Below, one piece after another: positions 1,696 through 26,724 of a stretch of 27,768 bases of DNA. A model generated the notes under the pieces. The model ran no database searches and had not been told where the DNA came from. It saw only the letters and a list, made by a program, of their open reading frames with translations. Origin of the DNA: a virus; the IMG/VR virus record IMGVR_UViG_3300045146_000277, positions 1-27,768 of that record; one strand, written 5' to 3'. The position numbers and the translations under genes were made by a program. How positions within the stretch are numbered: position 1 is the first letter of the stretch; each line of letters opens with the position of its first letter.

Positions 1696-3116
1696 TCGCC
1701 AACGCCGGACTGACATTCACGGCCGACACCAGCGGGGCCACCCGCTTCGGGTTCGATGCCGTGGAAGACAAGGGCCGCCGCAAGCCGCCGGTGGTCCGGC
1801 TGCGGAGCGAGGATGACGAAGCCACCCCGCAGCAGCGCGGGCAACTCATCACCCTGACCCGCGACATCCGCCGCAATTTCACCCTAGCTGCGTGGGCCAT
1901 CCGCAAGCACCTGGACTACGTTTCGACCTTCACGTTTCAATCCAAGATCGGCGATGACGCCCTCGACGATCGGATCGAGGAATTGATCGCCTGGTGGGGC
2001 CGGGCGGCCAACTTCGACGTTGCCGGCCGTCACGGGCTGCGCCGCCACCTGCGATTGGCGGAGGCCCATCGGGCGCTGGACGGCGACTTCCTGGCCGTGA
2101 AGCTGGACAGCGGCAAGGTGCAGTCCATCGAGGGCGACCGGGTGCGGACCCCGACCTACTGGCCTGCCGACCGCGGGCCGCGTCCGGCGTGGGTCGATCG
2201 GATGCGCCACGGCCTGTTGTTGGACAAGGCGGGAGCCACGCTGGGCTATGCCGTGCATCGCCGCGGCGGCGGCTACGAAGTCGGCCCGGAATGGATGCGG
2301 CTAGCGTCCAACTCGTTCACCTTCGAGCGACTGGTGCCGGCCGAGTACGCCGTTCACCTGGCCTACTACGACCGCTTCGACCAGACTCGCGGCATTTCGC
2401 CCTTCGCCTCGGCGCTAAATCCGATTCGCGACGTGTACGAAGGACTCGATTACGCGCTGGCCAAGGCCAAGATCGCCCAGATGGTGGCCTTGAAGATGAC
2501 CGGCTTCGACACCTCCGACGCGCCGGCCGAATTGGATTGGGGCCGCGGGCCGGTGGCCTTCAAGCTGGGCGAGAACGAGAACGTCGAACTCCTGCAGGGC
2601 AACACGCCCACCAGCGAGTGGCAGGCGTTCATCAATTTCGAGATCGCCGCCGCCTTGAAGGCGTTCGACATCCCCTTCCTGTTCTACGACGAATCGATCG
2701 GCAACTACAGCAAGGACCGTTCGGCTTGGCTGCAATACGACAACGCCAGCGAGCAGAAGCGCGAAGACCTGCGCGAGTACGCTTACGACCTGATTAACTG
2801 GCGGCTGGCGATGTTCGTCGCCTTCGGCACGTTGGAATTGCCGCGCGGCTTCAACGTGGCCCGCGACCTGAAGTATGACTTGATCGCCAACCGCGTGCCG
2901 TGGATCGATCCCTTGAAGGAAGTCCAGGCGTACAAGATGGCCGCCAACACGGGCTTCGATTCGACGCCCGACATCGCCATGCGGATGGGCAAGGACGCCT
3001 ACGAGTTGGCCGACAAGGAAGCCGCCTACCAGAACTACCGGCAGAGCATCGGCTTGCCGCGGACCGACACGCCGCTGGCCCCGGTGCCCGTCACGATCAA
3101 CGAGGGAGCCCAATGA
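1692..3116 (+). CDS. Phage portal protein, lambda gpB-like
   Basis: 474 residues from the ATG that overlaps the previous stop (ATGA); the frame extends upstream but that part lies inside the connector gene. Portals form the dodecameric ring at one capsid vertex through which DNA passes. Visible signs are an N-terminal segment with LTRDIRRNFTLAAWAIRKHL, a central GDFLAVKL strand, the GISPFASALNPIRDVYEGLDY segment typical of portal crowns and stems, and near residue 340 the IGNYSKDRSAWLQ stretch that corresponds to the NYS...R region of the lambda family. Length is close to gpB. The stop overlaps the next ATG at 3113, again ATGA. The flanking terminase and protease make the call firm. Confidence 0.9.
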   Translation: MIANAGLTFTADTSGATRFGFDAVEDKGRRKPPVVRLRSEDDEATPQQRGQLITLTRDIRRNFTLAAWAIRKHLDYVSTFTFQSKIGDDALDDRIEELIAWWGRAANFDVAGRHGLRRHLRLAEAHRALDGDFLAVKLDSGKVQSIEGDRVRTPTYWPADRGPRPAWVDRMRHGLLLDKAGATLGYAVHRRGGGYEVGPEWMRLASNSFTFERLVPAEYAVHLAYYDRFDQTRGISPFASALNPIRDVYEGLDYALAKAKIAQMVALKMTGFDTSDAPAELDWGRGPVAFKLGENENVELLQGNTPTSEWQAFINFEIAAALKAFDIPFLFYDESIGNYSKDRSAWLQYDNASEQKREDLREYAYDLINWRLAMFVAFGTLELPRGFNVARDLKYDLIANRVPWIDPLKEVQAYKMAANTGFDSTPDIAMRMGKDAYELADKEAAYQNYRQSIGLPRTDTPLAPVPVTINEGAQ

Positions 3117-4225
3117 GCAATGCCGCAACCAGACAAGTGCCGAAAAACGCCATGCGGTTTTCCGCCGGGCCGTGCCAATTCGCCGCCGCCAACGGCGATG
3201 GAAAAGTCCCCGTCCGGCTCACCGCCCGCAGCGGCGACCCCATCAACCACTGGTATTTCGGCCTCTGCATCCACGACCTTGCCGGAATGCAGTTGCACAA
3301 GGACCGGCTGCCGCTGGACTACGCTCACTACGATCAGGAAGTGATCGGCTTTGCCGACAAGTTCGACGTCGCCAGCGGCGACCTGGTGGTCGACGGCCAG
3401 TTGGTTCCCTTCGACGAAAAGGACCGGGCCAGCGAGATCATCTTCAAGGCCAATCAGGGCGTGCCCTACGAATCGTCGATCTTCTTCGACGACGCCACGG
3501 TCGAAGACATCCCGGCCGGCAAGGTGGCCCAGGTCAACGGCCGGCAGATTCCCGGCCCGCTGACCGTGTTCCGCCAGTGGGGCCTGCGCGGGATCGCGAT
3601 TTGCCCCTACGGGGCCGACAAGAACACGCCGGTCCAGTTGGCCGCCGGCGAGGAAGCGACAATCACCATCCTTTCCACGAAGGAGGAAAACGCGATGGCA
3701 GCGAAGAAGAAAGCGGCGTCTGGCGGCGACTCGGCGGCCGGCGCCTTGACCGACGAAGCGGCCCCGGCCGCGGTGGAAGAGAAGCCGGCAGAGACCAAGC
3801 CCGCCGAGAGTGAGCCTGCCAAACCGGCCGAAGAGGCGGCAGCCGTCCCGGCCGCGGAAGAGAAGCCGGCGGAAGTTGCGCCGGCGGCCGCCACGGAACA
3901 AGCGGCCGTTCAGCCGGCCGCCAAGACGGGCAAGGACTTCCTGGAGGCGTTCGGCCAGCAGGGGGCCGCCTGGTTCGTCGAGGGGAAGACCTGGGACGAA
4001 GCCCAGAAGCTCAACGCCGACGCCTTGAAGGCCGAGAACGAAGACCTCAAGGCCAAGCTGGCGGCGGTCAAGTTCGGCGTCAAAGAGCCGCTCTCGTTCA
4101 CCCCGGCGGACGACGATCCCAACGCCGTGGAGTCGGCGCGATTGAAGCGGGAGTTGGGTGAAAATTTGGGAGCGTTCGCCGCCGGTATCGACAAGGGATC
4201 GAAGCGAAAGCGTGATCGCGTATAG
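3113..4225 (+). CDS. Prohead protease fused to scaffold domain
   Basis: 370 residues, start ATG at 3113 overlapping the portal stop. Residues 1-190 look like a capsid maturation serine protease: LDYAHYDQEVIGFADKF carries the candidate catalytic His72, and VPYESSIFF carries Ser121/Ser122 about 50 residues later, the usual His-to-Ser spacing of this protease fold. The segment PLTVFRQWGLRGIAICPYGAD is the common closing part. After residue 195 the protein is Ala/Pro/Glu/Lys rich and ends with a predicted coiled coil (DEAQKLNADALKAENEDLKA), typical of a scaffold. This equals lambda gpC with its C-terminal Nu3 part, and a strong internal start supports that. The catalytic assignment is inferred from spacing. 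Confidence 0.8.
   Translation: MSNAATRQVPKNAMRFSAGPCQFAAANGDGKVPVRLTARSGDPINHWYFGLCIHDLAGMQLHKDRLPLDYAHYDQEVIGFADKFDVASGDLVVDGQLVPFDEKDRASEIIFKANQGVPYESSIFFDDATVEDIPAGKVAQVNGRQIPGPLTVFRQWGLRGIAICPYGADKNTPVQLAAGEEATITILSTKEENAMAAKKKAASGGDSAAGALTDEAAPAAVEEKPAETKPAESEPAKPAEEAAAVPAAEEKPAEVAPAAATEQAAVQPAAKTGKDFLEAFGQQGAAWFVEGKTWDEAQKLNADALKAENEDLKAKLAAVKFGVKEPLSFTPADDDPNAVESARLKRELGENLGAFAAGIDKGSKRKRDRV
3680..3697 (+). promoter_or_regulatory. Internal Shine-Dalgarno for a nested scaffold start
   Basis: AAGGAGG at 3680-3686 sits 8 nt before an ATG at 3695 that is in the same frame as the protease gene. It is among the best SD matches in the window, much better than the SD of the protease gene itself, so internal initiation is likely. 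Confidence 0.75.
3695..4225 (+). CDS. Nested in-frame scaffold protein, Nu3-like
   Basis: 176 residues, the C-terminal part of the protease gene translated from its own start (codon 195 of the long form). It begins MAAKKKAASGG, continues with an Ala/Pro/Glu/Lys-rich stretch that should be disordered, then a helical segment with KDFLEAFGQQGAAWF and a coiled coil near residues 105-130, and ends with a basic tail (KGSKRKRDRV). Scaffolds of this type guide capsid assembly and are later cleaved; a basic C-terminus that binds the shell is common. The evidence is the strong SD, the in-frame ATG exactly at the domain border, and the lambda C/Nu3 precedent. Separate expression has not been shown. Confidence 0.7.
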   Translation: MAAKKKAASGGDSAAGALTDEAAPAAVEEKPAETKPAESEPAKPAEEAAAVPAAEEKPAEVAPAAATEQAAVQPAAKTGKDFLEAFGQQGAAWFVEGKTWDEAQKLNADALKAENEDLKAKLAAVKFGVKEPLSFTPADDDPNAVESARLKRELGENLGAFAAGIDKGSKRKRDRV

Positions 4226-5321: not shown

Positions 5322-5753
5322 ATGACTCAGAGCTACGAAGTTCGCGACGCCTTGCTCATCAAGGCGGACGCCCTGCCGGCGGACGCCGGGACGGTCAACG
5401 GGACCGCCATCGACCTGGGGGCGGTTGGCTCCCACGGGGCTCGGTTGGAAAACTGCGAGGTCAAGCTGTCGGCCCCGGCGCTGACGGTGACGCAGTTGCC
5501 CAACACGACCACGGCCACCTACAGCATTCAGGCTTCGGCGGCCTCGAATTTCGACGGCGCGGTGACGCTGGCCAGCGGTTGCATCGTGCAAACGGGGGCC
5601 GGGGGCGCGGGCGCCGCGGCCGATTCGTTCCGCCTGAAGCTGCCCACGGATTGCCCGCGCTACTTGCGGGCGGTAGTCGTAGGGGCCGACGTGGGCGAGG
5701 CCGGTTTCGGCGACTGCTCCGACGCCGACATGACGCTGGAACTGCTGTTCTGA
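5322..5753 (+). CDS. Capsid cement (decoration) protein, Bbp16-like
   Basis: 143 residues from the ATG at 5322, with AAAGGA at 5308-5313 as SD; the open frame reaches further upstream into the capsid gene but only this start has an SD. The sequence is beta-rich: an opening DALLIKADALPADAGTVN, then AIDLGAVG, ending with RYLRAVVVGADVGEAGF and an MTLELLF strand. This order (an IDLG strand near the start, a PRYLR strand late) resembles the Bordetella phage Bbp16 type jelly-roll cement protein that binds the shell at capsomer contacts. Such proteins follow gp7-type capsid genes, as here. The family call is inference; a structural capsid role is likely. Confidence 0.65.
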   Translation: MTQSYEVRDALLIKADALPADAGTVNGTAIDLGAVGSHGARLENCEVKLSAPALTVTQLPNTTTATYSIQASAASNFDGAVTLASGCIVQTGAGGAGAAADSFRLKLPTDCPRYLRAVVVGADVGEAGFGDCSDADMTLELLF

Positions 5754-5952: not shown

Positions 5953-7383
5953 ATGAAACGACCGAGAGCATTATTCCGCGTGTCTACGATGACCAAAACG
6001 GCGTCCTTCATAGCGAGGTCCGCTGGCGGAGCGGTGGCGAGGTTCCGCAGGATGTTCCACCTCCAATTGCGGACCGACAAAGAATCTCGCGGCTGGCAGG
6101 GAGTTTCGGTCGAGTGCGTCGCAACGCTCTGCCTGCTGCTCTTGCTGTCCGGCTGCTGGCCGGGGCGGCGCGACAATCCCGAGCCGCCGCAAGCGGCCGT
6201 GTCGATCGTGGTGCTGTACGACACCAAGGCGGCCGACGACCTGGGCGTCTACGCCGACAAGGAACTTGATTCCTACGCGGAGTCCCACGGCTTCCAATTG
6301 CGCATCCACGCCACCGAAACGGTCGATGAATCGGGCAAGCCGCCCAAGTACCTTCAGCCGTACCTGGAATTCGCCCAGGGAAAGAAAACGCCGCTGGTGA
6401 TGATCGGCGGCAACGGCAAGGTGCGCGACTCGATGGAGCGGCCGGTCGACTGTCAGGCGGTGATCGCCCTTGTGGAAAAGGCGGCTGGCGATCCGGAGCG
6501 GGCCAGCGATGCCATTTGGGCCGGCGGCCAGTGGCGAAAGCTGGCCAGCCTCAAACCGTGCCGACCGGGTGCCGCCTCGCGGTGGCCGGTTGAAGGTGCG
6601 ACCAGCCAGGAACCGCTGATCCCGGAAAAGGATTGGCGCGACGTTTCGATCCTCAACTACTCCAAGCGCATCGCCGATCAGGGATCGTATTCGAGTTGCT
6701 GCCCTACCTCCGGTTGCTCGGCGCTCGAGATGTTCGCCAACCGCTCGGGACTCAAGCCGGTGCGGCTGTCGGCGGCCGACGCCTATTGGCGAATCAACGA
6801 CGGGCGCGATTCCGGCGCGATGCTGGAAGACTTCTGGTCCATCGCCGGGAGCGAGGGGGTTTGCACAACCGACTTTTGCCAAGAGCAGACCGGCCGCAGC
6901 CCGTCGCACAAGGACGGCTTTCGCAGCGACCGCGGCAAACACCGCTCGTTGCGGGTGACCTACTGCGACGGCTGGGAGGCGATGGCCTCCGCGATCCAGA
7001 GACGGAAGCCGGTGCATTTCGGCTTGATGGTGACCAGCCAGTTTTCTGCCAATTCGCAAGGCGTCATCGGCCCCAAGCGTTCGCGCGGCGGAGGCGGCCA
7101 TGCCGTGCTGGCCATCGGCATGAAGAAGATCGGCGGCGAGTGGTACATCGTGATGCAGAACTCATGGGGCGAGCGTTGGGGCGGCTCGTTGGATGGCAGC
7201 GTGCCGAAAGGCTGTTGCCTGTTGCATACCTCATGGATTGAGCCGGCCTTCGGCTGCTTCGCGTTGGCCGCCATCGTTTCGCCGAGCGACGATCCGATTG
7301 CCGTGCGACCGAGGAAACCGATTACGGAAACACTTTACGCAAAGGACATCCAATGGAAACCGCTCTTGGCGCTTTCGCCCTGA
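5953..7383 (+). CDS. Papain-like C1 cysteine peptidase with lipoprotein-type signal
   Basis: 476 residues in the longest frame. The peptidase domain spans about 225-445: DQGSYSSCC places Gln243 and Cys249 with papain-like spacing (Q-x5-C), GGGGHAV gives His383, and QNSWGERWGG gives Asn403. The usual CGSCW is changed to SYSSCCP, so activity needs proof. A hydrophobic stretch ending LLLLLSGC (Cys68) looks like a lipobox. The ATG at 6052, with GAGG upstream, would place this signal nearer the N-terminus and may be the true start. Residues 80-200 hold a thioredoxin-like or unknown region (VSIVVLYDTKA...TPLVMIGGNGKV). The gene overlaps the next by 31 nt. A peptidase of this kind inside a head-tail operon is unusual; roles in entry, lysis or exclusion are guesses. 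Confidence 0.75.
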   Translation: MKRPRALFRVSTMTKTASFIARSAGGAVARFRRMFHLQLRTDKESRGWQGVSVECVATLCLLLLLSGCWPGRRDNPEPPQAAVSIVVLYDTKAADDLGVYADKELDSYAESHGFQLRIHATETVDESGKPPKYLQPYLEFAQGKKTPLVMIGGNGKVRDSMERPVDCQAVIALVEKAAGDPERASDAIWAGGQWRKLASLKPCRPGAASRWPVEGATSQEPLIPEKDWRDVSILNYSKRIADQGSYSSCCPTSGCSALEMFANRSGLKPVRLSAADAYWRINDGRDSGAMLEDFWSIAGSEGVCTTDFCQEQTGRSPSHKDGFRSDRGKHRSLRVTYCDGWEAMASAIQRRKPVHFGLMVTSQFSANSQGVIGPKRSRGGGGHAVLAIGMKKIGGEWYIVMQNSWGERWGGSLDGSVPKGCCLLHTSWIEPAFGCFALAAIVSPSDDPIAVRPRKPITETLYAKDIQWKPLLALSP

Positions 7384-8000
7384 CTCCGCTGTGGGTTCGG
7401 CTGTTGCTGTTGTACCTGTTCGCCGGACTGGCCTTGTCGCTCTACGACAACCGCCGGCAGGCGGGCGATTCGATCCTCAAGGCGGTGACCGCCGTGCTGG
7501 TGGCCGCCGTGTCGGCCCCGGTGACGGCCGTGGTTCTGCTGGTGCTGTTCATTATGAAGCGCACCTCGCCGCTGCCGATGCTGTTGCTGTGCCTGACGCT
7601 TGGCGTGGCGGTGGCCATCGCCGGCCCGTTCAACCGTGCGTTGCCGTCGCCTTGTGCCAACGGCCAATGTCCGACCGAGCGAGCGACCGGCTTGTTGTTG
7701 CCGCCTCTGGTCAAGCAGCCGGCGCCGGTTGTCGAGAATCCTACACCGCCCGACGCGGGAACACAGAAGCCGCCTGTTGCCGAGAAGGTGGCCCGACCCG
7801 CGCCGCCGTTGCCGGCAACGCCCTGGGGATTCGACATCACCTGGGAAGGCAAGCGGGGGAACAAGATCATCATTGGCGCGGAGGCGGAAGTAGTCGCGGC
7901 TACGGTGGTGGAAGGGGAGCGGCTGCCACGAATCAAAGCGGCCGCAAGTCGGGCGCGTCACGCGGCGGATCGGGTCGTGAATCGGTTCCGGAGGTACTGA
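7353..8000 (+). CDS. Membrane protein with three predicted helices, possible holin
   Basis: 215 residues, ATG at 7353 with AAAGGA about 7 nt upstream, overlapping the end of the peptidase gene. Hydrophobic segments lie near residues 12-30, 45-68 and 74-92, joined by short basic loops; then a Pro-rich linker (about 105-155) and a basic, Ala/Arg-rich C-terminal tail that ends RVVNRFRRY. Three membrane helices in a short phage protein next to a peptidase recall holin-lysis cassettes, but the long soluble tail is not typical. It may instead anchor or transport the upstream peptidase. I do not recognise a family. Confidence 0.65.
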   Translation: METALGAFALTPLWVRLLLLYLFAGLALSLYDNRRQAGDSILKAVTAVLVAAVSAPVTAVVLLVLFIMKRTSPLPMLLLCLTLGVAVAIAGPFNRALPSPCANGQCPTERATGLLLPPLVKQPAPVVENPTPPDAGTQKPPVAEKVARPAPPLPATPWGFDITWEGKRGNKIIIGAEAEVVAATVVEGERLPRIKAAASRARHAADRVVNRFRRY

Positions 8001-8036
8001 GCCGCGAGCCGCGGCGGGCAGGTTGTGGAGGCGGTT

Positions 8037-8231
8037 ATGGGCGGCCTTCCGCAGTTGGTGCTGAGTCGAGAGTGGGTTGGATTCTGCCCGTGCGGCCGAA
8101 TCATCCTGGCGGCCGAGGGCGGCGACGAACCGCCCCGGCGTGTGTTGTGCGATGCGTGCGAAAGGCTTTTTCAGGTGGTTGGCGACAGGGAACTGACGAC
8201 AGGCAAGGACAGCGAGGGCAAGCCATCGTGA
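8037..8231 (+). CDS. Zinc-ribbon miniprotein
   Basis: 64 residues from the ATG at 8037, with TGGAGG at 8026-8031 as SD; a GTG at 8025 in the same frame is possible but overlaps that SD. Two Cys pairs, CPCG and CDAC, stand about 25 residues apart around a short strand and a basic turn, as in small zinc ribbons. The stop overlaps the next start (GTGA), so expression is coupled to the small membrane protein downstream. The function is unknown; it belongs by position to the peptidase/membrane cassette. Confidence 0.6.
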   Translation: MGGLPQLVLSREWVGFCPCGRIILAAEGGDEPPRRVLCDACERLFQVVGDRELTTGKDSEGKPS

Positions 8232-8515
8232 CGACCGACGAACGCGGCCTATTGGAAGCGGTGCTGACCAAGGTACAGGAAACCCACGACGCGTTGATCA
8301 GGCATATCGCCAAGTGTGAAGCCTGCCGGGCCACGGTCGATTCGCTCAAGGTGACCGTCTACGGCGCGGAGGCCGACGACCACCGGCCGGGCCTCAAGGC
8401 GCAAGTGGTCAGCTTGGGCACGGTGATGAAGGTTTGCTTCGCGGTGTGCGGCGTGGGGCTGTTGGTGCTGGCCGTGGCGGACACGGTGCTGATCGTCCGG
8501 GCGTTGGCGTGGTGA
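8228..8515 (+). CDS. Small coiled-coil protein with C-terminal membrane helix
   Basis: 95 residues, GTG start at 8228 overlapping the previous stop. The N-terminal 35 residues form an amphipathic helix (LLEAVLTKVQETHDALIRHI) followed by a CEAC pair; the C-terminal 30 residues are a membrane helix (VCFAVCGVGLLVLAVADTVL). The layout (soluble helix then one C-terminal membrane segment, under 100 residues) resembles XhlA-type holin partners and other small phage lysis proteins. This is a structural analogy only. Together with the preceding three-helix protein it could form the lysis pair of this phage; no endolysin of a known family is seen in the window. Confidence 0.6.
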   Translation: MTTDERGLLEAVLTKVQETHDALIRHIAKCEACRATVDSLKVTVYGAEADDHRPGLKAQVVSLGTVMKVCFAVCGVGLLVLAVADTVLIVRALAW

Positions 8516-8525
8516 GGGAACAATC

Positions 8526-9431
8526 ATGGGCGTATTGAGCATCGACCCGCAGATCATCGGCTGCGTTGACGACCGTTCGGCCGTCGGCGTGCTGCGCAAC
8601 AAGCCGGCGTTGGGAAACATTGTTGCCGTTCCCTTTCGCCTCAACTGGGGCGAGCTTACGGCCATAGGCAGCGGCAGTGCGGCAACGCTGATCCAGAGCG
8701 GCTACGGTATCAGCCAAGAGCCGATTGACTCCTGCCTGTCGTTCACCGTGCCGGCCGTCACCGGCCACGGAGCGATGTGGCAGGGCACATTCTACGGGCC
8801 GGTGTTCGGCTTCTCAATCTACCGCGTTTCGAGTTCAACCTATGTGACCGACCGGCTTTCGTGCCTGGTGGATGGCGAGGCGTACCCGTGCCGCGTGCTG
8901 TCGGAGATGATGGCCTCGCGGGCCTACGCCGGCAACACCGACATGCGGGGTATGTTCGTTGCGGTCGATGACTTGCCCGACCTGCCGCAAGGCCGTCCGC
9001 ACCACGCCTACATCACCTGCGCGAGTCACCCCAGTACGGCGACAACTTCGCTGTTTATTACGTCGTTGTTGTTGGATGGCCGCTACTACGCAGCTCGACT
9101 GCCGGACTACTACGTCAAGACGCCGTTTCTGCCCATCACGTCGGCGACGGGACTATTTGCCGATTCGGCGACCAGCGCGGCCGGGACCGGCTCGACCATG
9201 TTCCGCGTGGTTCGTAAGCTGATTTTTCAGAACCTTGCCAGCGCCGCACGGATTGTTGAAATTCGCGTCGGCGCGGCCGTCATGCGGCGAATCACGCTGG
9301 CGGCCCTCGATTCGGCCGGCGACTCGGCGGAGATTGACTTCGGAGCGGACATCCACAACACGACCCTTTCGTGGATCGTGACCAACGGCAGCGCCAGCGA
9401 AGTGCAAGCGATGGTAACCGGGAGAACGTAA
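8526..9431 (+). CDS. Unknown virion-type protein, possible tail tip or receptor-binding protein
   Basis: 301 residues, ATG at 8526 ten bases after the previous stop with GGGAA as weak SD. The sequence is rich in Ser, Thr, Ala, Gly and beta-type strands, without a signal peptide or membrane helix. The C-terminal third (ASAARIVEIRVGAAVMRRIT then LAALDSAGDSAEIDFGADI) looks like a beta-sandwich. I do not recognise the family. The next gene is an SGNH hydrolase 2 nt downstream and then fibre-like proteins, so a place in the host-contact apparatus is likely by context. Confidence 0.6.
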   Translation: MGVLSIDPQIIGCVDDRSAVGVLRNKPALGNIVAVPFRLNWGELTAIGSGSAATLIQSGYGISQEPIDSCLSFTVPAVTGHGAMWQGTFYGPVFGFSIYRVSSSTYVTDRLSCLVDGEAYPCRVLSEMMASRAYAGNTDMRGMFVAVDDLPDLPQGRPHHAYITCASHPSTATTSLFITSLLLDGRYYAARLPDYYVKTPFLPITSATGLFADSATSAAGTGSTMFRVVRKLIFQNLASAARIVEIRVGAAVMRRITLAALDSAGDSAEIDFGADIHNTTLSWIVTNGSASEVQAMVTGRT

Positions 9432-9433
9432 GC

Positions 9434-10336
9434 ATGGCAACCAACCGCAGAATGCCGACCAGTTACGCCAAAGGCCGGCGGTTCTCCGTCGCCTGCATGG
9501 GCGACTCGCTGACTTTCGCGGCCGGGTCCGGCGTGCGGGCCGACCAGTATTGGCCGGAGCAACTGGGCATTCGCCTCCGCGCGGCCGGCGCAGCGGCGGC
9601 CGTGCGCAACTGCGGTAAGAGCGGCGACACCAGCACGCAAATGCTGGCCCGAATCGCCGATATGCTGTACTTTGACCCATCGCCGGTTATCGCGATCATC
9701 CACGCCGGCTACAACGACCCCGGGGCGTCGATCCCGCAGGCCACCACGCAAGCCAACATCCAAGCCATGATCCGCTACTTGCGTAACGGCTGCGTGGGGC
9801 AGGTGGCCGGCCAAGCGACGCTGCCGGCCGAACAAGCGGAGGGGACCAAGTATCTGGTGGTGAGCGACACGTCCAGCACGGGCGGAATCAATCCTGAATT
9901 GGCCGGCTCGCGAACCGGTCCGCAAGTCTGGCAGTCGCGCAACGGCCTGGCCGGCGAAAGCGGTTGGGGGCGGCTCAACTCACAATCCGGCACCACCATC
10001 ACGCGGTTCATGCTGCTGACGACGCATTTCTGCAACTACAGTTCGGCCGGCGATACGGTGGATACCGGCCACGCCGGGCAGAACGCCACGCGGAAGCAGG
10101 TCTACGACGCGCAGGCAGCGGCCCAAGCAGCGGAGGCCGGCGCGGTGCTGTGCGACATCTACGCCAGTCTGCAAGCCCGCATTGTGGCGGCAACCACCGG
10201 CGACACGGCCACCAACTACACCTGGCACACGGCCAATGGGGACATTCACCCGAACCCCTACGGGCACGACCTGATTGCGCAGTGCGCCTACGCGACGTTG
10301 GTGGCCCAAGAGGGCTGGCTGGCGGCAATTAGTTGA
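9434..10336 (+). CDS. SGNH/GDSL-type hydrolase (virion esterase candidate)
   Basis: 300 residues from the ATG at 9434; no membrane or secretion signal. The SGNH blocks are clear: GDSLT near the start gives nucleophile Ser25, NCGKSGDTS supplies the block II Gly, AGYND gives Asn94, and GDIHPNPYGHD gives Asp270 and His272. SGNH enzymes remove acyl groups from sugars or lipids; phage ones usually sit on tail fibres and deacetylate host surface glycans. The gene stands between an unknown virion-type protein and a fibre-like protein, in agreement with this. The substrate cannot be read from sequence. A cellular metabolic esterase is less likely in this context. Confidence 0.85.
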   Translation: MATNRRMPTSYAKGRRFSVACMGDSLTFAAGSGVRADQYWPEQLGIRLRAAGAAAAVRNCGKSGDTSTQMLARIADMLYFDPSPVIAIIHAGYNDPGASIPQATTQANIQAMIRYLRNGCVGQVAGQATLPAEQAEGTKYLVVSDTSSTGGINPELAGSRTGPQVWQSRNGLAGESGWGRLNSQSGTTITRFMLLTTHFCNYSSAGDTVDTGHAGQNATRKQVYDAQAAAQAAEAGAVLCDIYASLQARIVAATTGDTATNYTWHTANGDIHPNPYGHDLIAQCAYATLVAQEGWLAAIS

Positions 10337-10355
10337 GGCTTTTTGGAATAGTTCA

Positions 10356-11369
10356 ATGGGTCAATTCGTCATCGCAAAAAGCTGGTTGAGCGGCGCGGCT
10401 CTGACCGTGGCGGCCTACGACGCGGCCGGCGCGTTGATCTTCGCTGCCGCCGCGATGAGCGAATCCCCCGCTAGTTCGGGCTGTTATCGCCTGGTGCGAA
10501 GCGATCTTGACGGGCAGCAGGGGCATTTCATTTTCGACGATGGCACGTTCAAAGAGATCGAGGCGTTCGGGAATCCGGACCGCTTGGCGGCCGTATACGA
10601 CGCGGCCAAGACGGCCGCAACGCAGATCAGCGTTGACGCGATCCCGACCAATCCGCTATTGGACGACGATTCGCGACTCGACAACCTGGACGCGACGGTT
10701 TCGAGCCGCCATGCCTCGGGTGCGCCGGTGGCCAAGTCGCCGGCAACCCTGGACTGGTCGGCCGACGTCACCAACAAGCCGACCATCGGCACCAGCACGT
10801 TGGACGCGGCAGGAGTCCGCAGTGCCGTGGGAATGGCAGAAGCCGACCTCGACGAGCAACTGGCAGCGTTGGCGGAAGGCGACACTACGGCCGCGGAGAT
10901 TCGTGCGGCCATCGGCATGGAAGCGGCGGACCTCGATGCGCAGTTGGCGGCCGTCAAGGTGAAGACGGACCTCATTACCACACAGGGAGTTTTCGTTCAG
11001 CAGTCGATCGGGGCCAACGGCGCGCCGCTGGTCATCTATCGCGGCGACGACATGGACGAATCGACCGGCCGCTACGTGGATGTGACGCTGCCGGCCGGCC
11101 CGGACCTAACGGACGCCGCGGCATCGCTGGTGGTGCGGCTGCATTCCACGGGTGCGGTGGAGTTGGAAGCCGCTGGGGAACTACAACCGGGGACGCGGAC
11201 TTTCCGTTTCAGCTTGCCTGCCGCCGACACGTCGGTCTGCACGGCCGGCGTGCGCGACCATGATTATGCGGTCAATGTGACCTTGGACGGCGGGCTGATC
11301 TGGACGCCGTTCATTGGAATTCAAGCGGCCAGCGTGACCGACAACCTGGCCGTGGCAGAGGAGGCGTAA
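10356..11369 (+). CDS. Fibre- or baseplate-like protein with repeated helical motif
   Basis: 337 residues, ATG at 10356. The N-terminal 80 residues form a small beta domain (GAALTVAAYDAAGALIFAAA then a GHFIFDDGTFKEIEAFG part). A central region repeats a helical motif: GMAEADLDEQLAAL and GMEAADLDAQLAAVK, each with an IRAA or VRSA start, ending VKTDLITTQGVFVQ; such repeats are common in trimeric tail-fibre shafts. The C-terminal 110 residues are a beta domain with RYVDVTLPAGPDLTDAAAS and a GLIWTPFIGIQAASV end. No family is named with confidence; shape and neighbours suggest a host-contact or tail-tip protein. Confidence 0.65.
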   Translation: MGQFVIAKSWLSGAALTVAAYDAAGALIFAAAAMSESPASSGCYRLVRSDLDGQQGHFIFDDGTFKEIEAFGNPDRLAAVYDAAKTAATQISVDAIPTNPLLDDDSRLDNLDATVSSRHASGAPVAKSPATLDWSADVTNKPTIGTSTLDAAGVRSAVGMAEADLDEQLAALAEGDTTAAEIRAAIGMEAADLDAQLAAVKVKTDLITTQGVFVQQSIGANGAPLVIYRGDDMDESTGRYVDVTLPAGPDLTDAAASLVVRLHSTGAVELEAAGELQPGTRTFRFSLPAADTSVCTAGVRDHDYAVNVTLDGGLIWTPFIGIQAASVTDNLAVAEEA

Positions 11370-11371
11370 GC

Positions 11372-11428
11372 AATGGCGTCACGTTACGCAAGAACCGGCG
11401 GACCGAACTTTTCCCAGTCGAGCGATTG
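11372..11428 (+). pseudogene. 18-codon ORF, possible remnant of a fibre gene start
   Basis: It starts 2 nt after the previous stop (TAAGCAATG) and reads MASRYARTGGPNFSQSSD before TGA. The RYARTGGPNFSQ string resembles the opening of beta-solenoid fibre proteins (xRTGGxNW). The next gene is such a protein but begins differently, so this may be a leftover start of a replaced or truncated paralogue, or just a short leader peptide. Confidence 0.35.
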
Positions 11429-11481
11429 AAACACGGAGCCCGATGGCTCGGGCGATGCTGGCGTTCCGGAAGGAGGCGACG

Positions 11482-12804
11482 ATGGCCACGCGGACTACAC
11501 AAGCTGCCGGCAACCTAAAGACCGACACGGCGACCGTGTGGGGCGGCAACGCTCCCGCCGAATCGGATGATCTCGTCGTGGCCCATGCGGGATGCTCGCT
11601 GAGCCACGGTCAGACGTTGACCTGCAACACGCTCAAGCAAAGCGGCGACGGTACCATTGAAACGGCGGGCGATGTGGTGATCGTGGCAACGAACGTCACT
11701 TCACTGGATGAACCGGCGTTGGCGTCATTTCTACAGGGCGCGTCACGATCGAGAATCTTCCTCGATTCTCCCGCGAAAGCCTCTACGGGCGGACCAGGCG
11801 GCAACTATCAAGGCGAACTGCCCGGTGAGCCTGGGGTCGATGCGGCGGCGTTGGTGTCGCTAGCTGCGGACGCGAGCCTCATCAAGGTAGATGATTCTTA
11901 CGAATGGGAGAGCGGCGACGGCGGGCAGGGCGGTAATGGTGATGGAAACGAAGTGCCAGGCGGAAAGGGTGGGACGGGCGGGGTAATCTGCGAGACGGGA
12001 ATCATTGTCGGTTCGGCAGCCAACATGGCGGTGCAGGGCTTGACTGGCCCAGCCGGTATGGTAGAGCCGGTCGGAGCAGGCGGCGATCCTGGAAATGTCA
12101 CAGTTCCGACTTACGATCGGGCCGACCCGACATCAAGCACGGCGGCACTAGATACGTTGGTTTGGCCGATTGCCTTCAGTTGCGTGAGTTTGGCGAGCGT
12201 CGATCTGAACGGCTTCAGCGTGGATTGTGATGGGGTGACTTTGCCTGCGTCCTTGACCGTGACGGACGACAGTAGCGCGGGCACTCTGTTGAAGCCGTCG
12301 ATTGTCGGAACGCTGGCACTTGAGGTCGGTCACCTTGATGAGCCGACGTTTGGGGCGAGTTCCATAACGACGCTTTCGAGCACGGCCGATTTGCAAGACT
12401 CGACCGACCAGACGATGACGCTGCCAGACGGAGCGACGTTGACGTTCGAGGATACCGCCAAGATCGTCGCTGGCCACACGCTCACCGCCGAGGCAGGATC
12501 GACACTCAACGTCAATGTGGATGACACGTCCGCCTTTGCCAACGTGTCCAGCTATGGAGACTTGTATTTCGAGCCAGGGGCAACGATCAACAATGACGCC
12601 GGCATAGGCGACTTGCTGCTGAAAATAACCGTGCCGAATGGCAGCGACTCCAACACGGTGGTTGATTACCCGGCGGAAGGCGACGTAACCGACGGGGTTT
12701 TCTTCGCCAACAACACCAAAGAGGGCAGCGCCCCCGCTTCGTCGCCGCCGGCCATCGGCCGGGTGGACCTGGCCCCGGGAACGGAACTCAACTTCAAGGG
12801 CTGA
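11482..12804 (+). CDS. Beta-solenoid-like tail fibre protein with Gly-rich insert
   Basis: 440 residues. ATG at 11482 is chosen because AAGGAGG (11470-11476) lies 5 nt before it; ATGs at 11443 and 11455 in the same frame lack an SD. The first 75 residues have short repeated strand-turn units (LVVAHAGCSLSHGQTLTCNT, then LKQSGDGTIETAGDVVI) like a parallel beta-solenoid. Residues about 100-200 hold a Gly-rich insert (GDGGQGGNGDGN and GGKGGTGG). Further solenoid-like rungs follow (TMTLPDGATLTFEDTAKIVA, then HTLTAEAGSTLNVNVDD). Base use from about 11700 to 12660 is visibly less GC-rich than in neighbouring genes, a sign of recent exchange, as is usual for fibre genes. Confidence 0.65.
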   Translation: MATRTTQAAGNLKTDTATVWGGNAPAESDDLVVAHAGCSLSHGQTLTCNTLKQSGDGTIETAGDVVIVATNVTSLDEPALASFLQGASRSRIFLDSPAKASTGGPGGNYQGELPGEPGVDAAALVSLAADASLIKVDDSYEWESGDGGQGGNGDGNEVPGGKGGTGGVICETGIIVGSAANMAVQGLTGPAGMVEPVGAGGDPGNVTVPTYDRADPTSSTAALDTLVWPIAFSCVSLASVDLNGFSVDCDGVTLPASLTVTDDSSAGTLLKPSIVGTLALEVGHLDEPTFGASSITTLSSTADLQDSTDQTMTLPDGATLTFEDTAKIVAGHTLTAEAGSTLNVNVDDTSAFANVSSYGDLYFEPGATINNDAGIGDLLLKITVPNGSDSNTVVDYPAEGDVTDGVFFANNTKEGSAPASSPPAIGRVDLAPGTELNFKG

Positions 12805-12806
12805 GC

Positions 12807-13190
12807 ATGACCACTACGCCGGCAGAACGAATGCAAGCCGCCGCCCGCCTGTTGAAGCGGGGATGCTCCGTGCTGGCCGGAGTGCGGGCCAGCGTCCAGC
12901 GCGACGGCCAAAGCGTCGTGGTCGATGCGGTGCAAGGCAGGTCGGAGTTCGCCGTGGAAAGCGGCGGTGCGTTCGTCACCGTGACCAACGATCTTTCGTT
13001 GCTGGTCGAGGCGTCGGCTCTGGTGTTTTCCGGCAGTCTGGAAACGCCCAAGAGCGGCTGGAAGCTGACTGTGCTGGACGGCCCGAAGGCCAATCAGGTG
13101 TTTGAAGTTCTTGCTTTGCCCAACGGCAGTTGCCACGAGGAAATGGCCGGCGGCAACCTGTTGAGAATCCACTTGAAGCGAGTTGCGTGA
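12807..13190 (+). CDS. Head-tail connector (joining) protein candidate
   Basis: 127 residues; ATG at 12807, 2 nt after the fibre stop. It has an N-terminal helix (PAERMQAAARLLKRG), then a beta-rich body, with SGWKLTVLDGPKANQVFEVL near residue 90 and an LRIHLKR end strand. Small proteins with a closing motif of this sort (W-x-V-x-D then F-x-V) occur among phage head-tail joining or stopper proteins. The two following genes look like tail terminator and tail completion proteins, so this matches the connector slot. The family is not recognised with certainty. Confidence 0.55.
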   Translation: MTTTPAERMQAAARLLKRGCSVLAGVRASVQRDGQSVVVDAVQGRSEFAVESGGAFVTVTNDLSLLVEASALVFSGSLETPKSGWKLTVLDGPKANQVFEVLALPNGSCHEEMAGGNLLRIHLKRVA

Positions 13191-22338: not shown

Positions 22339-23112
22339 TCAGCGCGTGATTTCCCACGCCCGCCGCTTGATCCAATCCAGGTCTTCTTTCGAGATCTTGG
22401 CCCGCTCGACCGAGAATCGGCTGCCGTCGCGGCGTTGGAAAACCACCTTATCGCCGATGCCCCACAGGTACTTCGCCTCGACCTGGTGCTGGCCGCTGGC
22501 GTCGGTCCACGTTCGCCACTTGCGAGATTCGATCAGGTCGCGTCGCTGCTTCTCGAAAGCCGCATTGGCCGCGGCCCGTTCGGCATCCTCTCGCTGGGCG
22601 GCGGCAAGATCGGATTCCGCACTTGGCTGCGGTTCGTCGGCGCGTCGCGGCTGATTCCAATTCGGGTCCACCGGCGGACCGCAGATAGATTGCTGCGGCT
22701 CTTCCATTCCCGCTTCGCCCGACGCGGGAAGAGCCGCAGCCGGTCGTACCGGCGGCCAGACGGTTTCCCAACCCTCGGGCAGCTCGGGCATCTGGTCGAC
22801 GGTGAAGAACTTGGGCGGCTGGTATTCGGCCGGCTCGGCTTCGGGCTGGTCCCAGCCTTCCGGCGTGCGCGGGTCGCGCGACGGCTGCGGGATTGCTCCC
22901 GGCGACGGGTGCTCGGGGTCGGGGAGCCAGGTCCGGGCGCTGGCACCGGCGTGCATCCGTTCATCGACGCTATTGGGCGTGATCTTGGCGTAGTCCTGAG
23001 TCCGGTACGCCTGCCAGAGCCCGTCTTGCCAGATGTAGGAGAAGGCGTAGCACAGCGCGCCGGTGGCCGCCGCGAAGACCAGCAACGCCAGCAGATACGG
23101 CTTTTCTTGCAT
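22339..23112 (-). CDS. Membrane-anchored protein with C-terminal SHD1-like domain
   Basis: 257 residues, the only convincing gene on the - strand. SD GGAGG lies about 5 nt before the ATG. An N-terminal membrane segment (LLALLVFAAATGALCYAFSY) anchors the protein. Residues 60-160 are Pro/Glu rich, with GWDQPEAEPAEYQPPKFF, likely extended. Residues about 170-200 form a charged helix. Residues 197-257 match the SHD1 pattern: RKWRTWTDASGQHQVEAKY, then a DKVVFQRRDGSRFSVERAKI strand pair, then SKEDLDWIKR. SHD1 domains are common in planctomycete surface and membrane proteins. Own strand, own SD and host-like domain suggest a host-derived gene carried by the phage, perhaps expressed in the lysogen. 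The function is unknown. Confidence 0.8.
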   Translation of the reverse strand: MQEKPYLLALLVFAAATGALCYAFSYIWQDGLWQAYRTQDYAKITPNSVDERMHAGASARTWLPDPEHPSPGAIPQPSRDPRTPEGWDQPEAEPAEYQPPKFFTVDQMPELPEGWETVWPPVRPAAALPASGEAGMEEPQQSICGPPVDPNWNQPRRADEPQPSAESDLAAAQREDAERAAANAAFEKQRRDLIESRKWRTWTDASGQHQVEAKYLWGIGDKVVFQRRDGSRFSVERAKISKEDLDWIKRRAWEITR

Positions 23113-24034: not shown

Positions 24035-24670
24035 ATGATTTGCACAGACGCGAAGCGTCTTCGTCGCAAGGCATATAACACCTGGTATGGAATGCGAAGA
24101 CGCTGTTACGAACCAACCGCGAACGCCTATGAATACTACGGAGCCCGTGGAATCGCCGTGTGCCGACGCTGGCGAGATTCTTTCACGGCGTTTCTGAATG
24201 ACATGGGGCTTCCGCCGTCTCGCCTCCATTCGATCGACCGCATCGACAACCACGGCCATTACGAACCGCGAAATTGCCAATGGGTAACTCGGCGTGAGCA
24301 GTCGCGGAATATGTCGTCCAATCGAACGGTGACGTTCAACGGGCGAACGATGGTTCTTGCCGATTGGGCGAACGAACTCGGCATTGACCACAGCGCTTTG
24401 CGGAACCGCATCAAACGTCACGGCGTGGTGGTGGCCCTGTCCACGCCTCCGCTTCAACGTGGGAAAGTAATTTCCCATCCGAAGCACCACAAGCGGCACC
24501 CATCTACCGGCTTTCGCGGCGTCTATCGAAACAAGAACCGTTTCGAGGCCCGCGTGCATCGCAATGGCTCGGTTCATTATCTCGGGATGTTCGGGACGGC
24601 CGAAGAGGCTTCAGTGGCCGTATGCAACTTCGACTCCATCCATTCCACCCAGGAGCCCATTTCGGAATGA
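24035..24670 (+). CDS. HNH-type endonuclease with HTH and AP2 domains
   Basis: 211 residues, ATG at 24035 with GGAG upstream. Residues about 12-95: YNTWYGMRRRCYEPTAN, YEYYGARGIAVCRRW, then SIDRIDNHGHYEPRNCQWVT, the pattern of the HNH-like family that goes with AP2 domains (His, Asn and Asp in the DRIDN/NC region). Residues 96-130 form an HTH (TFNGRTMVLADWANELGID). Residues 155-195, GFRGVYRNKNRFEARVHRNG then HYLGMFGTAEEASVAV, match an AP2 DNA-binding domain. Such proteins are homing endonucleases or phage-borne nickases that spread between phages. It lies between the excisionase-like and integrase genes, so it may be an insertion there. Confidence 0.85.
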   Translation: MICTDAKRLRRKAYNTWYGMRRRCYEPTANAYEYYGARGIAVCRRWRDSFTAFLNDMGLPPSRLHSIDRIDNHGHYEPRNCQWVTRREQSRNMSSNRTVTFNGRTMVLADWANELGIDHSALRNRIKRHGVVVALSTPPLQRGKVISHPKHHKRHPSTGFRGVYRNKNRFEARVHRNGSVHYLGMFGTAEEASVAVCNFDSIHSTQEPISE

Positions 24671-24880: not shown

Positions 24881-25762
24881 ATGATCCAGGCAGATTCATC
24901 GTTGGCGGCGTTTGTGCGCGGCACGTATGCGGCGCGCCATCTGGGCATTGCGCCGGCCACCATCGACGTGTACTGCTACGCCGTGCGGTCGCTGGAGAAG
25001 TTTGCCGGGCGGCGGCTGTCGCTGGCAGACCTCAACGACGATCTACTCTACGCCTGGCTGTCGCAACGGCTGGGCGAAGTGTCGGTCCGCACGGTTCGAC
25101 GCGAGCGGGGCGACTTGCTGACCGTCTGGCGTTGGGCGGCCGACAACGGATTCTGTCTCAGCAAGCCGGGTCGCATCGCGGCCCCCAAGCAACATCGACG
25201 CGAGCCGGTGGCCTGGACGGTCGAGGAAATGCGGCGGCTGGTGGCGGCCTGCGATCAACTCACGGGCCGATCACGGACGACGGGCATCGCCTGGTCGGCA
25301 TGGGCACGCTCGCTGATTCTCACCTGCTACTACACGGGTGCGAGGATTGGAGCCTTGATGCAGGTCCGGCCGGCGGACATCGACCTCGACAAGGCGACGA
25401 TTACGCTCCGGCCGGAAACGCAGAAGCCGCGGCGCGAGGAAATCTTGCGGCTGCCGCCAGTGGCCGTGGAAGCGATTCGGGCGATTTGCGACCCGGCCCG
25501 GTCGCTGGTGTGGCGGCTGCATCGCTCGAAACGCTCGCCGCGACATCACCTGACGCGGCTGCTGAAAGCGGCCGGCCTGACCGTGGATCGCTACCACGCC
25601 TTTCATTGTCTGCGCAAGACGTGCTACACGCATACGGCCATCGCCGCCGGGCTGGCCGTGGCTTCAAGACAGCTTGGGCACCGCTCCGACCTATCGAGCG
25701 TCTATCTCGATCGCTCGCAGCTTCCCGAGCCGCAAGCGGCCGACGTGCTGCCAAGGCTCTGA
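24881..25762 (+). CDS. int: Tyrosine recombinase (phage integrase)
   Basis: 293 residues from ATG 24881; no clear SD. An N-terminal SAM-like DNA-binding domain (about 1-95: YAARHLGIAPATIDVYCYAV) is followed by the catalytic domain. The catalytic set is visible: Arg155 in TGARIGAL, His242 and Arg245 in FHCLRKT, His267 in QLGH, and nucleophile Tyr275 in SSVYLD. The protein lacks an extra arm-binding domain before the SAM-like part, as in short integrases. It should insert the phage at the tRNA-Leu core (23366-23425). Two hairpins follow the gene. Confidence 0.93.
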   Translation: MIQADSSLAAFVRGTYAARHLGIAPATIDVYCYAVRSLEKFAGRRLSLADLNDDLLYAWLSQRLGEVSVRTVRRERGDLLTVWRWAADNGFCLSKPGRIAAPKQHRREPVAWTVEEMRRLVAACDQLTGRSRTTGIAWSAWARSLILTCYYTGARIGALMQVRPADIDLDKATITLRPETQKPRREEILRLPPVAVEAIRAICDPARSLVWRLHRSKRSPRHHLTRLLKAAGLTVDRYHAFHCLRKTCYTHTAIAAGLAVASRQLGHRSDLSSVYLDRSQLPEPQAADVLPRL

Positions 25763-25808
25763 ATCTTCTTTCGCCCTCATTGCGGCAGCCTGTAGCGGCC
25801 GCGTTCTG

Positions 25809-25862
25809 CCCGGGCTTCGGCAACGTGAGTTCCATGCCGCACGCTCCGCAGCCCGGGTCTTT
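25809..25862 (+). terminator. Hairpin with T-tract after the integrase
   Basis: CCCGGGCT (25809-25816) and AGCCCGGG (25850-25857) pair; an inner CGGCA/TGCCG stem (25818-25822, 25835-25839) fills the loop. TCTTTT follows. Likely intrinsic terminator of the integrase transcript. Confidence 0.6.
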
Positions 25863-25865
25863 TGC

Positions 25866-25893
25866 TATTCCCGCTTTGTGCTACGCGGGAATA
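25866..25893. terminator. Perfect 9-bp hairpin after the integrase
   Basis: TATTCCCGC (25866-25874) and GCGGGAATA (25885-25893) pair around a 10-nt loop directly after the previous hairpin. No T-tract on the + strand. The rest of 25763-26009 shows no gene with support. Confidence 0.55.
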
Positions 25894-26009
25894 CACAAGC
25901 CATCTTCGATGGCCTCCGCGCCGTTCGCACCGGCGAGACGGACCGCCGGCACTGGGAGCACGACGCCCAGCGGCGGCGCGGAGGCTTCTACAACGATTAT
26001 TGCAATCCG

Positions 26010-26447
26010 ATGACAGACGTGAAGTGCGCTCATTGCAAATGGTTCCTTGCGGAAACGCCTGACGACGGGGAGGGCGAATGCCATCGCTTCCCGCCGAATC
26101 CAATGACAGTTCCACAGGATTACGTGGATGGAGGAGGATCGCAGAAGCTCATTGTCGTCAACTACTTTCCCCAATGTGACTGGGACAGCTTCTGTGGTGA
26201 GTTCATGGAACGCAACCAAGTTGAAAAGCACTCGCTCGATTCATTGTCCGTAAACTGCCTGAAGATTGGAGCCCGGGCTAGAAACGCCCTACTGAGCAAC
26301 GGTATTGAATCCATCGGTAAACTCACCCAAATCCACGCCGACCAGCTTATGCAGTTTCGTAACTTTGGGGTGCGGTGTCTGGCTGAAATTCGCCTGGCAT
26401 TGGGACTTCATGGTCTCGCGCTTCCACTGGAACAGGTTGTGAAGTAG
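26010..26447 (+). CDS. Zinc-ribbon protein fused to an RNA polymerase alpha-CTD-like domain
   Basis: 145 residues; ATG 26010 (the frame extends upstream without support). Residues 1-62: VKCAHCKWF, ECHRFPPNP, QCDWDSFCGEF hold five Cys/His clusters of a small zinc or iron site known from phage proteins. Residues about 72-140: SLDSLSVNCLKIGARARNAL, then NGIESIGKLTQIHADQLMQF, then RNFGVRCLAEIRLALGLHGL. This is the helix-hairpin-helix pattern of the RpoA C-terminal domain (the bacterial form runs SVRSANCLK...IGDL...LGKKSLTEIKDVL...RGL). RpoA-CTD binds UP elements and activators, so this protein may act on host or phage promoters. The domain match is strong; function is inference. Confidence 0.8.
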   Translation: MTDVKCAHCKWFLAETPDDGEGECHRFPPNPMTVPQDYVDGGGSQKLIVVNYFPQCDWDSFCGEFMERNQVEKHSLDSLSVNCLKIGARARNALLSNGIESIGKLTQIHADQLMQFRNFGVRCLAEIRLALGLHGLALPLEQVVK

Positions 26448-26472: not shown

Positions 26473-26724
26473 ATGCTGATTTTGAGCCGCCGCGTGAATG
26501 AAGCCATCACGATAACCACGCCGGCCGGCGAGGAAATCCACCTCATGCCGGTGCGGATCGATCGCAACAGCGTGCGGCTGGGAATCTCCGCTCCGGACGG
26601 GTTCACCATCGTGCGCAACGAAATCCGCGAGCAGCCGTGCGAACTGCCGGACGCGGTGCGACAGGAAATCGCCAGTCTCATGCACGGCGGCGTGCAAGGG
26701 CCGTTGTGCGGAGAGGAAAGGTAA
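26473..26724 (+). CDS. csrA: CsrA-like translational regulator
   Basis: 83 residues; AAAGGA is the SD 6 nt before ATG 26473. MLILSRRVNEAITITTPAGE starts the CsrA fold; MPVRIDRNSVRLGISAPDGF and TIVRNEI follow, matching the five-strand swapped dimer (E. coli MLILTRRVGE...VRIGVNAP...V.REEI). RNA-binding residues of strands 1 and 5 (the RR pair and the VRNEI Arg) are kept. CsrA binds GGA in leader hairpins and blocks or stabilises mRNA. A phage copy could redirect host translation or control phage genes; its own SD contains AGGA, so autoregulation is possible. The C-terminal 25 residues are extra. Confidence 0.92.
   Translation: MLILSRRVNEAITITTPAGEEIHLMPVRIDRNSVRLGISAPDGFTIVRNEIREQPCELPDAVRQEIASLMHGGVQGPLCGEER

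Follow-up and report, generated by a model that had tools for sequence, protein, structure and literature searches.

A predicted lipid-anchored papain-like peptidase with a putative thioredoxin-fold domain in an inserted gene block of an uncultured phage

An uncultured phage, whose hosts are probably planctomycete-type bacteria, encodes within its late genes a protein, here called PEP, that joins a lipoprotein signal and a C1 papain-like peptidase domain to an intervening segment which a structure model of moderate confidence suggests to be a redox-dead thioredoxin fold. PEP opens a gene block that capsid relatives do not share. Our tentative reading, to which we give somewhat less than an even chance, is that PEP is an envelope-directed protease acting at lysis of hosts with largely protein walls.

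Results

Gene order and host of the phage

The stretch of DNA analysed (the window), virus record IMG/VR IMGVR_UViG_3300045146_000277, is 27,768 bases long; its 5' end lies within the TerL gene and its 3' end within an exonuclease gene. TerL is followed by the genes for the portal, the head maturation protease, the major capsid protein and the cement protein, then by an accessory block, the head-tail joining gene and the tail genes (Table 1). Searching recovered no contig extending 5' of TerL or 3' of the exonuclease gene, and the longer relatives span about 30-44 kb as compared to the 27,768 bases of the window. L002, another contig of this phage, carries the four genes reported here (PEP, TM3, a zinc-ribbon-like miniprotein and TM1) at 99.8-100% identity. 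By capsid protein, the closest described phage is Akkermansia phage Chantilly (37%). An integrase and an HTH regulator, both temperate features, are encoded as well. Among the remaining genes are those for a CsrA-like regulator (26473-26724; PF02599, 2.6e-15), a possible transcription regulator with an RNA polymerase alpha C-terminal domain (25674-26447; PF03118, 1.2e-11) and an HNH endonuclease whose C-terminal part is possibly AP2-like (24035-24670; phrog_3377, 2e-50).

SHD1 domains are probably common among planctomycetes. They occur in the window, where the product of the minus-strand gene at 22339-23112 has both an SHD1 domain (PF03983, 2.1e-11) and a hydrophobic segment at its N-terminus, and also in the relatives G014 and G016. 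Since, in addition, the nearest described relative belongs to the PVC group and a weak match to a planctomycete cytochrome c lies beside the thioredoxin-like/peptidase gene pair of the giant phages described below, the host is probably of planctomycete type.

Table 1. Features of the window and of the accessory block.
Feature	Position	Strand	Description
TerL	to 1020		contig 5' end inside gene
Portal			lambda family, 9e-30
Head maturation protease	3113-4225		phrog_3244
Major capsid protein			GP7 family PF20911, 9e-24
Cement protein gene	5322..5753	+	left flank of block; present in most relatives
PEP	6052..7383 (ORF open from ATG 5953)	+	lipoprotein signal, putative thioredoxin-fold domain, C1 papain-like peptidase
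Lipobox S-G-C	6148..6156	+	predicted lipidated Cys at residue 35 (6052 start) or 68 (5953 start)
Thioredoxin-fold domain without CxxC (putative)	6187..6516	+	AlphaFold2 model and PDB structure matches
C1 peptidase domain	6607..7290	+	holds Q243, C249, H383, N403 (5953 numbering)
TM3	7353..8000	+	three hydrophobic segments, then Pro-rich tail and basic C-terminus
Zinc-ribbon-like miniprotein	8037..8231	+	CPC...CDAC; GGAGG ahead of ATG 8037
TM1	8228..8515	+	GTG start; N-terminal helical part, one long C-terminal hydrophobic stretch/membrane helix
g12	8526..9431	+	no Pfam/PHROG match; not found in relatives
SGNH/GDSL hydrolase	9452..10336	+	PF13472, 1.8e-19; not found in 35 relative records
g14 and g15	10356..12804	+	putative fibre or host-contact proteins; end of accessory block
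Head-tail joining protein gene	12807..13190	+	right flank; PF25138, 8e-7

The accessory block is an insertion

The block from PEP to g15 (5953-12804) places about 7 kb between the cement and head-tail joining genes. Capsid-protein searches yielded 39 loci, 38 when L002 is left aside. With the PEP-to-g15 genes as tblastn queries (E <= 1e-3) only L002 was matched, and none of the other 38 loci carries any of the four genes; a g15-like protein (32%) is present in G008. L002 was likewise the sole match when 36 records were searched with the PF00112 and PF13472 profiles. The cement gene leads directly or nearly so to the head-tail joining gene in G002, G004, G008, G013, G014 and G017, and some relatives have a small coil-plus-TM protein of different sequence at a similar place. 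In its GC content and its pattern by codon position the block matches the phage. The original prediction had described the four genes as a single cassette packed between the cement and host-contact genes. They do lie there, but the accessory block is larger, and the absence of all four from the 38 capsid relatives rules out a conserved four-gene cassette. Judged from these comparisons, the block is an insertion.

PEP combines a lipoprotein signal with a papain-like peptidase domain

The open reading frame at 5953-7383 matches PF00112 at 1.6e-14 (55 bits against a Pfam cut-off of 20.7), as does its copy in L002, and matches cathepsin H/K in the PDB at 1.8e-8. Its motifs DQGSYSSC, GGGGHAV and QNSWG align to the cathepsins with Q, C, H and N in order, such that Q243, C249, H383 and N403 (numbered from ATG 5953) fall on the papain active site of cathepsins H and K, in agreement with the peptidase and the four residues originally proposed. 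Translation probably starts at ATG 6052 rather than at 5953, because the former is preceded by GAGG and makes the lipobox Cys residue 35, while the latter lacks a Shine-Dalgarno sequence and would leave a 67-residue region ahead of the lipobox; the later start moves the numbering by 33 residues, to Q210, C216, H350 and N370. The LLSGC lipobox, also part of the original prediction, is present behind a hydrophobic stretch (LCLLLLLSGCW), and from 6052 the N-terminus conforms to the bacterial lipoprotein (type II) signal, with an n-region, a hydrophobic stretch and the lipobox L-S-G-C. Pfam gives no match N-terminal to the peptidase for an I29-type inhibitory propeptide, which is common but not universal in C1 peptidases. 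PEP is thereby predicted to be a secreted, lipid-anchored papain-family cysteine protease, its export and activity being read from sequence.

A putative thioredoxin-fold domain lies between lipobox and peptidase

Residues 46-155 of PEP, for which Pfam gives no match, were modelled with AlphaFold2 from a four-row alignment at moderate confidence (pLDDT 72.7, pTM 0.62). The top 50 PDB structure matches of this model are nearly all thioredoxins or thioredoxin-like proteins, with TM scores of about 0.5-0.6, probability 1.00 and E-values down to 2.5e-4. The alignment treated its other three rows as homologues, a relationship not shown by sequence profiles alone, so that it is the modelled window domain that carries the fold assignment. 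A model of full-length PEP (pLDDT 32) was set aside. CxxC is absent from 6187-6516, where the sole Cys (VDCQAV) sits near the last helix. With moderate confidence PEP may thus be described as a lipobox followed by a redox-dead thioredoxin fold and a C1 peptidase. The putative fold, which the original prediction did not contain, is newly recognised here.

Membrane proteins and other genes of the block

The coding signal is clear for PEP, TM3 and TM1; the miniprotein was not called by the gene caller. TM3 overlaps PEP by 31 bp and is preceded by AAAGGA. A match of TM3 to LrgB (antiholin-type) at 9.4e-4 lies below the Pfam cut-off and was attributed to hydrophobic composition. The CPC...CDAC pattern of the miniprotein is compatible with a zinc ribbon, with no Pfam match, and ATG 8037 is its more likely start. 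TM1 overlaps the miniprotein by 4 bp and could be called holin- or XhlA-like on architecture only; neither TM3 nor TM1 matches a holin family, and TM1 gave no match to any family. As a homologue of TM1 the coil-TM protein of G014 was rejected, as the two do not align. Apart from the start of the miniprotein, which probably moves to ATG 8037, the earlier description of a three-helix membrane protein, a zinc-ribbon miniprotein, a single-helix membrane protein and overlapping genes stands. Further along, the SGNH/GDSL hydrolase between g12 and the fibre-like genes is a possible capsule or glycan esterase.

Papain-like peptidases occur in other phage lineages

By tblastn and pattern scans we found C1 peptidases with 29-31% identity to PEP in three giant-phage-type contigs, LR756511 (595 kb; L006), L084 (187 kb) and L066 (an 18.8-kb fragment). 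Each of these genes lies directly 3' of a gene for a secreted thioredoxin-like protein, in which a Pro-rich linker joins an N-terminal domain to a thioredoxin-like C-terminal domain. In L084 the group (7228-12249) consists of the secreted thioredoxin-like protein, the C1 peptidase, a saposin-like hydrophobic protein, an N-terminally anchored 617-aa protein with CxxCH and a cytochrome-like protein, and it is conserved in L006 and L066.

Two more peptidases were found among the relatives, most of which, as far as examined, have no recognisable C1 peptidase. G014 encodes a 264-aa papain-like protein (NQSTLKYCW...GHALEL...LRNSHNE) that was the best non-training open reading frame of 12,889 in a leave-one-out HMM search (E 6.1e-4 or 3.6e-4; hhalign E 0.0034) and adjoins a 217-aa protein with a possible thioredoxin-like half. 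G031 encodes a signal-anchored papain-like protein (QGIGDCVSW...SHCMVFIG...LNSWGPDW), again the best non-training match (E 0.0086), which several small membrane proteins adjoin. Both genes lie upstream of TerL, as the lysis genes of lambda do. The catalytic Q/N, C, H and N are kept in all five homologues (LR756511/L006, L066, L084, G014 and G031); inactivation of C249 in most homologues, which the original prediction had named as evidence against itself, is not what is seen. No signal peptide is obvious in the peptidases of G014 and the giant phages, and localisation is therefore not uniform.

The leave-one-out HMM detects no mutual sequence match between the thioredoxin-like domains of the three lineages. 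Secreted CxPC thioredoxins that bear a membrane helix at the C-terminus are encoded by G031 and G013 and are related to each other (2e-8; PF13098). In G013 the minus-strand genes upstream of TerL (L051:178-2047) encode this CxPC thioredoxin with its TM helix, a 212-aa anchored protein and a 46-aa membrane protein; the 212-aa protein (L051:1412-2047) has a papain-like motif and the CxxC thioredoxin as neighbour, and was rejected as a homologue as it had no profile support. Two scans of genome contigs gave no host-genome homologues, and C1 family peptidases were found on Deinococcus and Sinorhizobium replicons.

No peptidoglycan hydrolase is recognised in the window or in a complete relative

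No peptidoglycan hydrolase domain was found in PEP, which has only the C1 peptidase, or in the other window genes scanned. The earlier statement that no standard endolysin is visible is thus true of the window, but as an argument it is weak, since the contig ends inside the exonuclease gene and starts inside TerL, without the region in which relatives keep such genes. In Akkermansia phage Chantilly an endolysin is annotated between the TerL and portal genes. The argument is stronger for G014 (34 kb), because that genome is complete, with a 144-bp direct terminal repeat and an integrase across the junction: 43 of its about 46 proteins were scanned and matched 21 Pfam families (E <= 0.01), with no recognisable peptidoglycan hydrolase among them. 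For 104 non-structural proteins from seven relatives, such a hydrolase is absent from the best 25 of 32 Pfam families matched, none of the other seven families being better than about 1e-4. A normal lysis cassette alongside a scattered set of the four genes had been named as the outcome that would speak against a lysis system; the relatives show no recognisable normal cassette, but neither does the set travel together.

Two further loci deserve mention. G004 has, between tail genes, a lipoprotein of spanin-like architecture, in which a long coiled part is combined with hydrophobic helices at the C-terminus (L056:11262-12170), and G008 has a pair of small membrane/lipobox proteins on the minus strand between g21 and the tape measure gene (L046:4294-5024), which could be lysis-related and has no family match.

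Discussion

The fold and anatomy of PEP are well supported; its export, activity, substrate, timing and role in lysis, like the planctomycete host, we infer. The original prediction had proposed a new lysis system for planctomycete envelopes, a superinfection-exclusion module or a membrane-bound processing enzyme, and of this the complete C1 active site, the lipoprotein signal and the membrane partners stand, while the cassette does not. The walls of Planctomycetales are described as consisting of protein, with YTV proteins rich in cysteine, and peptidoglycan genes are missing from most species (PMC8567305). We favour a proteolytic role at lysis because an envelope-anchored cathepsin-like enzyme made together with the late proteins would suit such a wall. 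PEP would be exported late in infection, become anchored to a membrane facing the wall and cut protein components of the envelope, which would help virions leave a protein-rich-walled host; the thioredoxin-fold domain may bind or position the substrate, and TM3 and TM1 are candidate membrane partners in holin- or spanin-like roles. This reading gains from the peptidases upstream of TerL, from the complete G014 genome without a recognisable hydrolase and from the protein walls described for Planctomycetales (PMC8567305). Against it, a separate lysis cassette may sit in the region upstream of TerL that the contig lacks, accessory lipoproteins of a phage with an integrase and an HTH regulator could be lysogenic-conversion genes, and the SGNH and fibre-like neighbours of PEP also fit host-contact functions.

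The temperate features, the lipobox and the insertion of the whole 5.95-12.8 kb block, absent from relatives as is typical of morons, would also suit an envelope lipoprotein of the lysogen or of early infection that trims a receptor or an incoming phage protein (superinfection exclusion) or alters the host surface, which the adjacent SGNH esterase could modify too. We consider a moron of this kind a serious rival, though rather unlikely, as the block is co-directional, tightly spaced and set inside the late genes and as the papain-like peptidases that recur among relatives lie ahead of TerL, a lysis-like place. PEP could also reside in the particle, cutting the protein wall at entry, or could mature tail-tip proteins or process the adjacent fibre-like proteins; its gene lies between head and host-contact genes, and the giant-phage and G014 homologues lack signal peptides. 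A lipobox would be unusual in a virion protein, however, a dedicated head maturation protease gene exists (phrog_3244) and PEP is overlapped by a membrane-protein gene, which makes a virion or assembly protease, though a serious rival too, unlikely in our estimate. That a host C1 peptidase gene was acquired by chance and has no part in the phage cycle appears improbable: C1 peptidases do occur in bacteria, for example on the Deinococcus and Sinorhizobium replicons, and close relatives lack the block, but its base composition is that of the phage, the frame and catalytic site are intact in both contigs, and similar peptidases occur in other phage lineages, in three contigs with a thioredoxin-like neighbour.

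Beyond PEP as a candidate lysis protease, one may ask whether, in phages of protein-walled hosts, membrane-targeted papain-like proteases associated with thioredoxin-fold proteins have taken the place of the peptidoglycan endolysin; in some members an active CxxC thioredoxin could then reduce wall proteins linked by disulfide bonds. We regard so general a replacement as doubtful, but a recurrent papain-like protease accompanied by a thioredoxin-like protein is a concrete candidate for lysis by Planctomycetales phages and, if true, would widen the notion of an endolysin from peptidoglycan hydrolases to wall proteases. In the open-access literature searched we found no paper on phage lysis of Planctomycetales, and the main text of a recent survey of viral lytic proteins mentions neither papain nor Planctomycetes (PMC12596118).

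PEP shares with papain C1 enzymes (PF00112; cathepsins H and K, bacterial C1 peptidases) the family profile, the Q-C-H-N residues and the NSWG motif, and differs in being phage-encoded and in having a lipobox and a putative thioredoxin-fold domain in place of the inhibitory propeptide. As in the giant phages (LR756511, L066, L084), a C1 peptidase is associated with a thioredoxin-like protein, although there the two are separate genes rather than a fusion, the peptidase has no signal and different genes follow, including cytochrome-like ones. Baculoviruses use a C1 cathepsin of their own, v-cath, to dissolve host structures late in infection. Its likeness to PEP is one of analogy only, v-cath being a soluble lysosomal-type enzyme of a eukaryotic virus. 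PeiW and PeiP, the pseudomurein endoisopeptidases of archaeal viruses, are viral cysteine peptidases adapted to a non-murein wall. These lysins differ from PEP in peptidase family and substrate and offer only an analogy for how PEP might work; the survey (PMC12596118) cites them.
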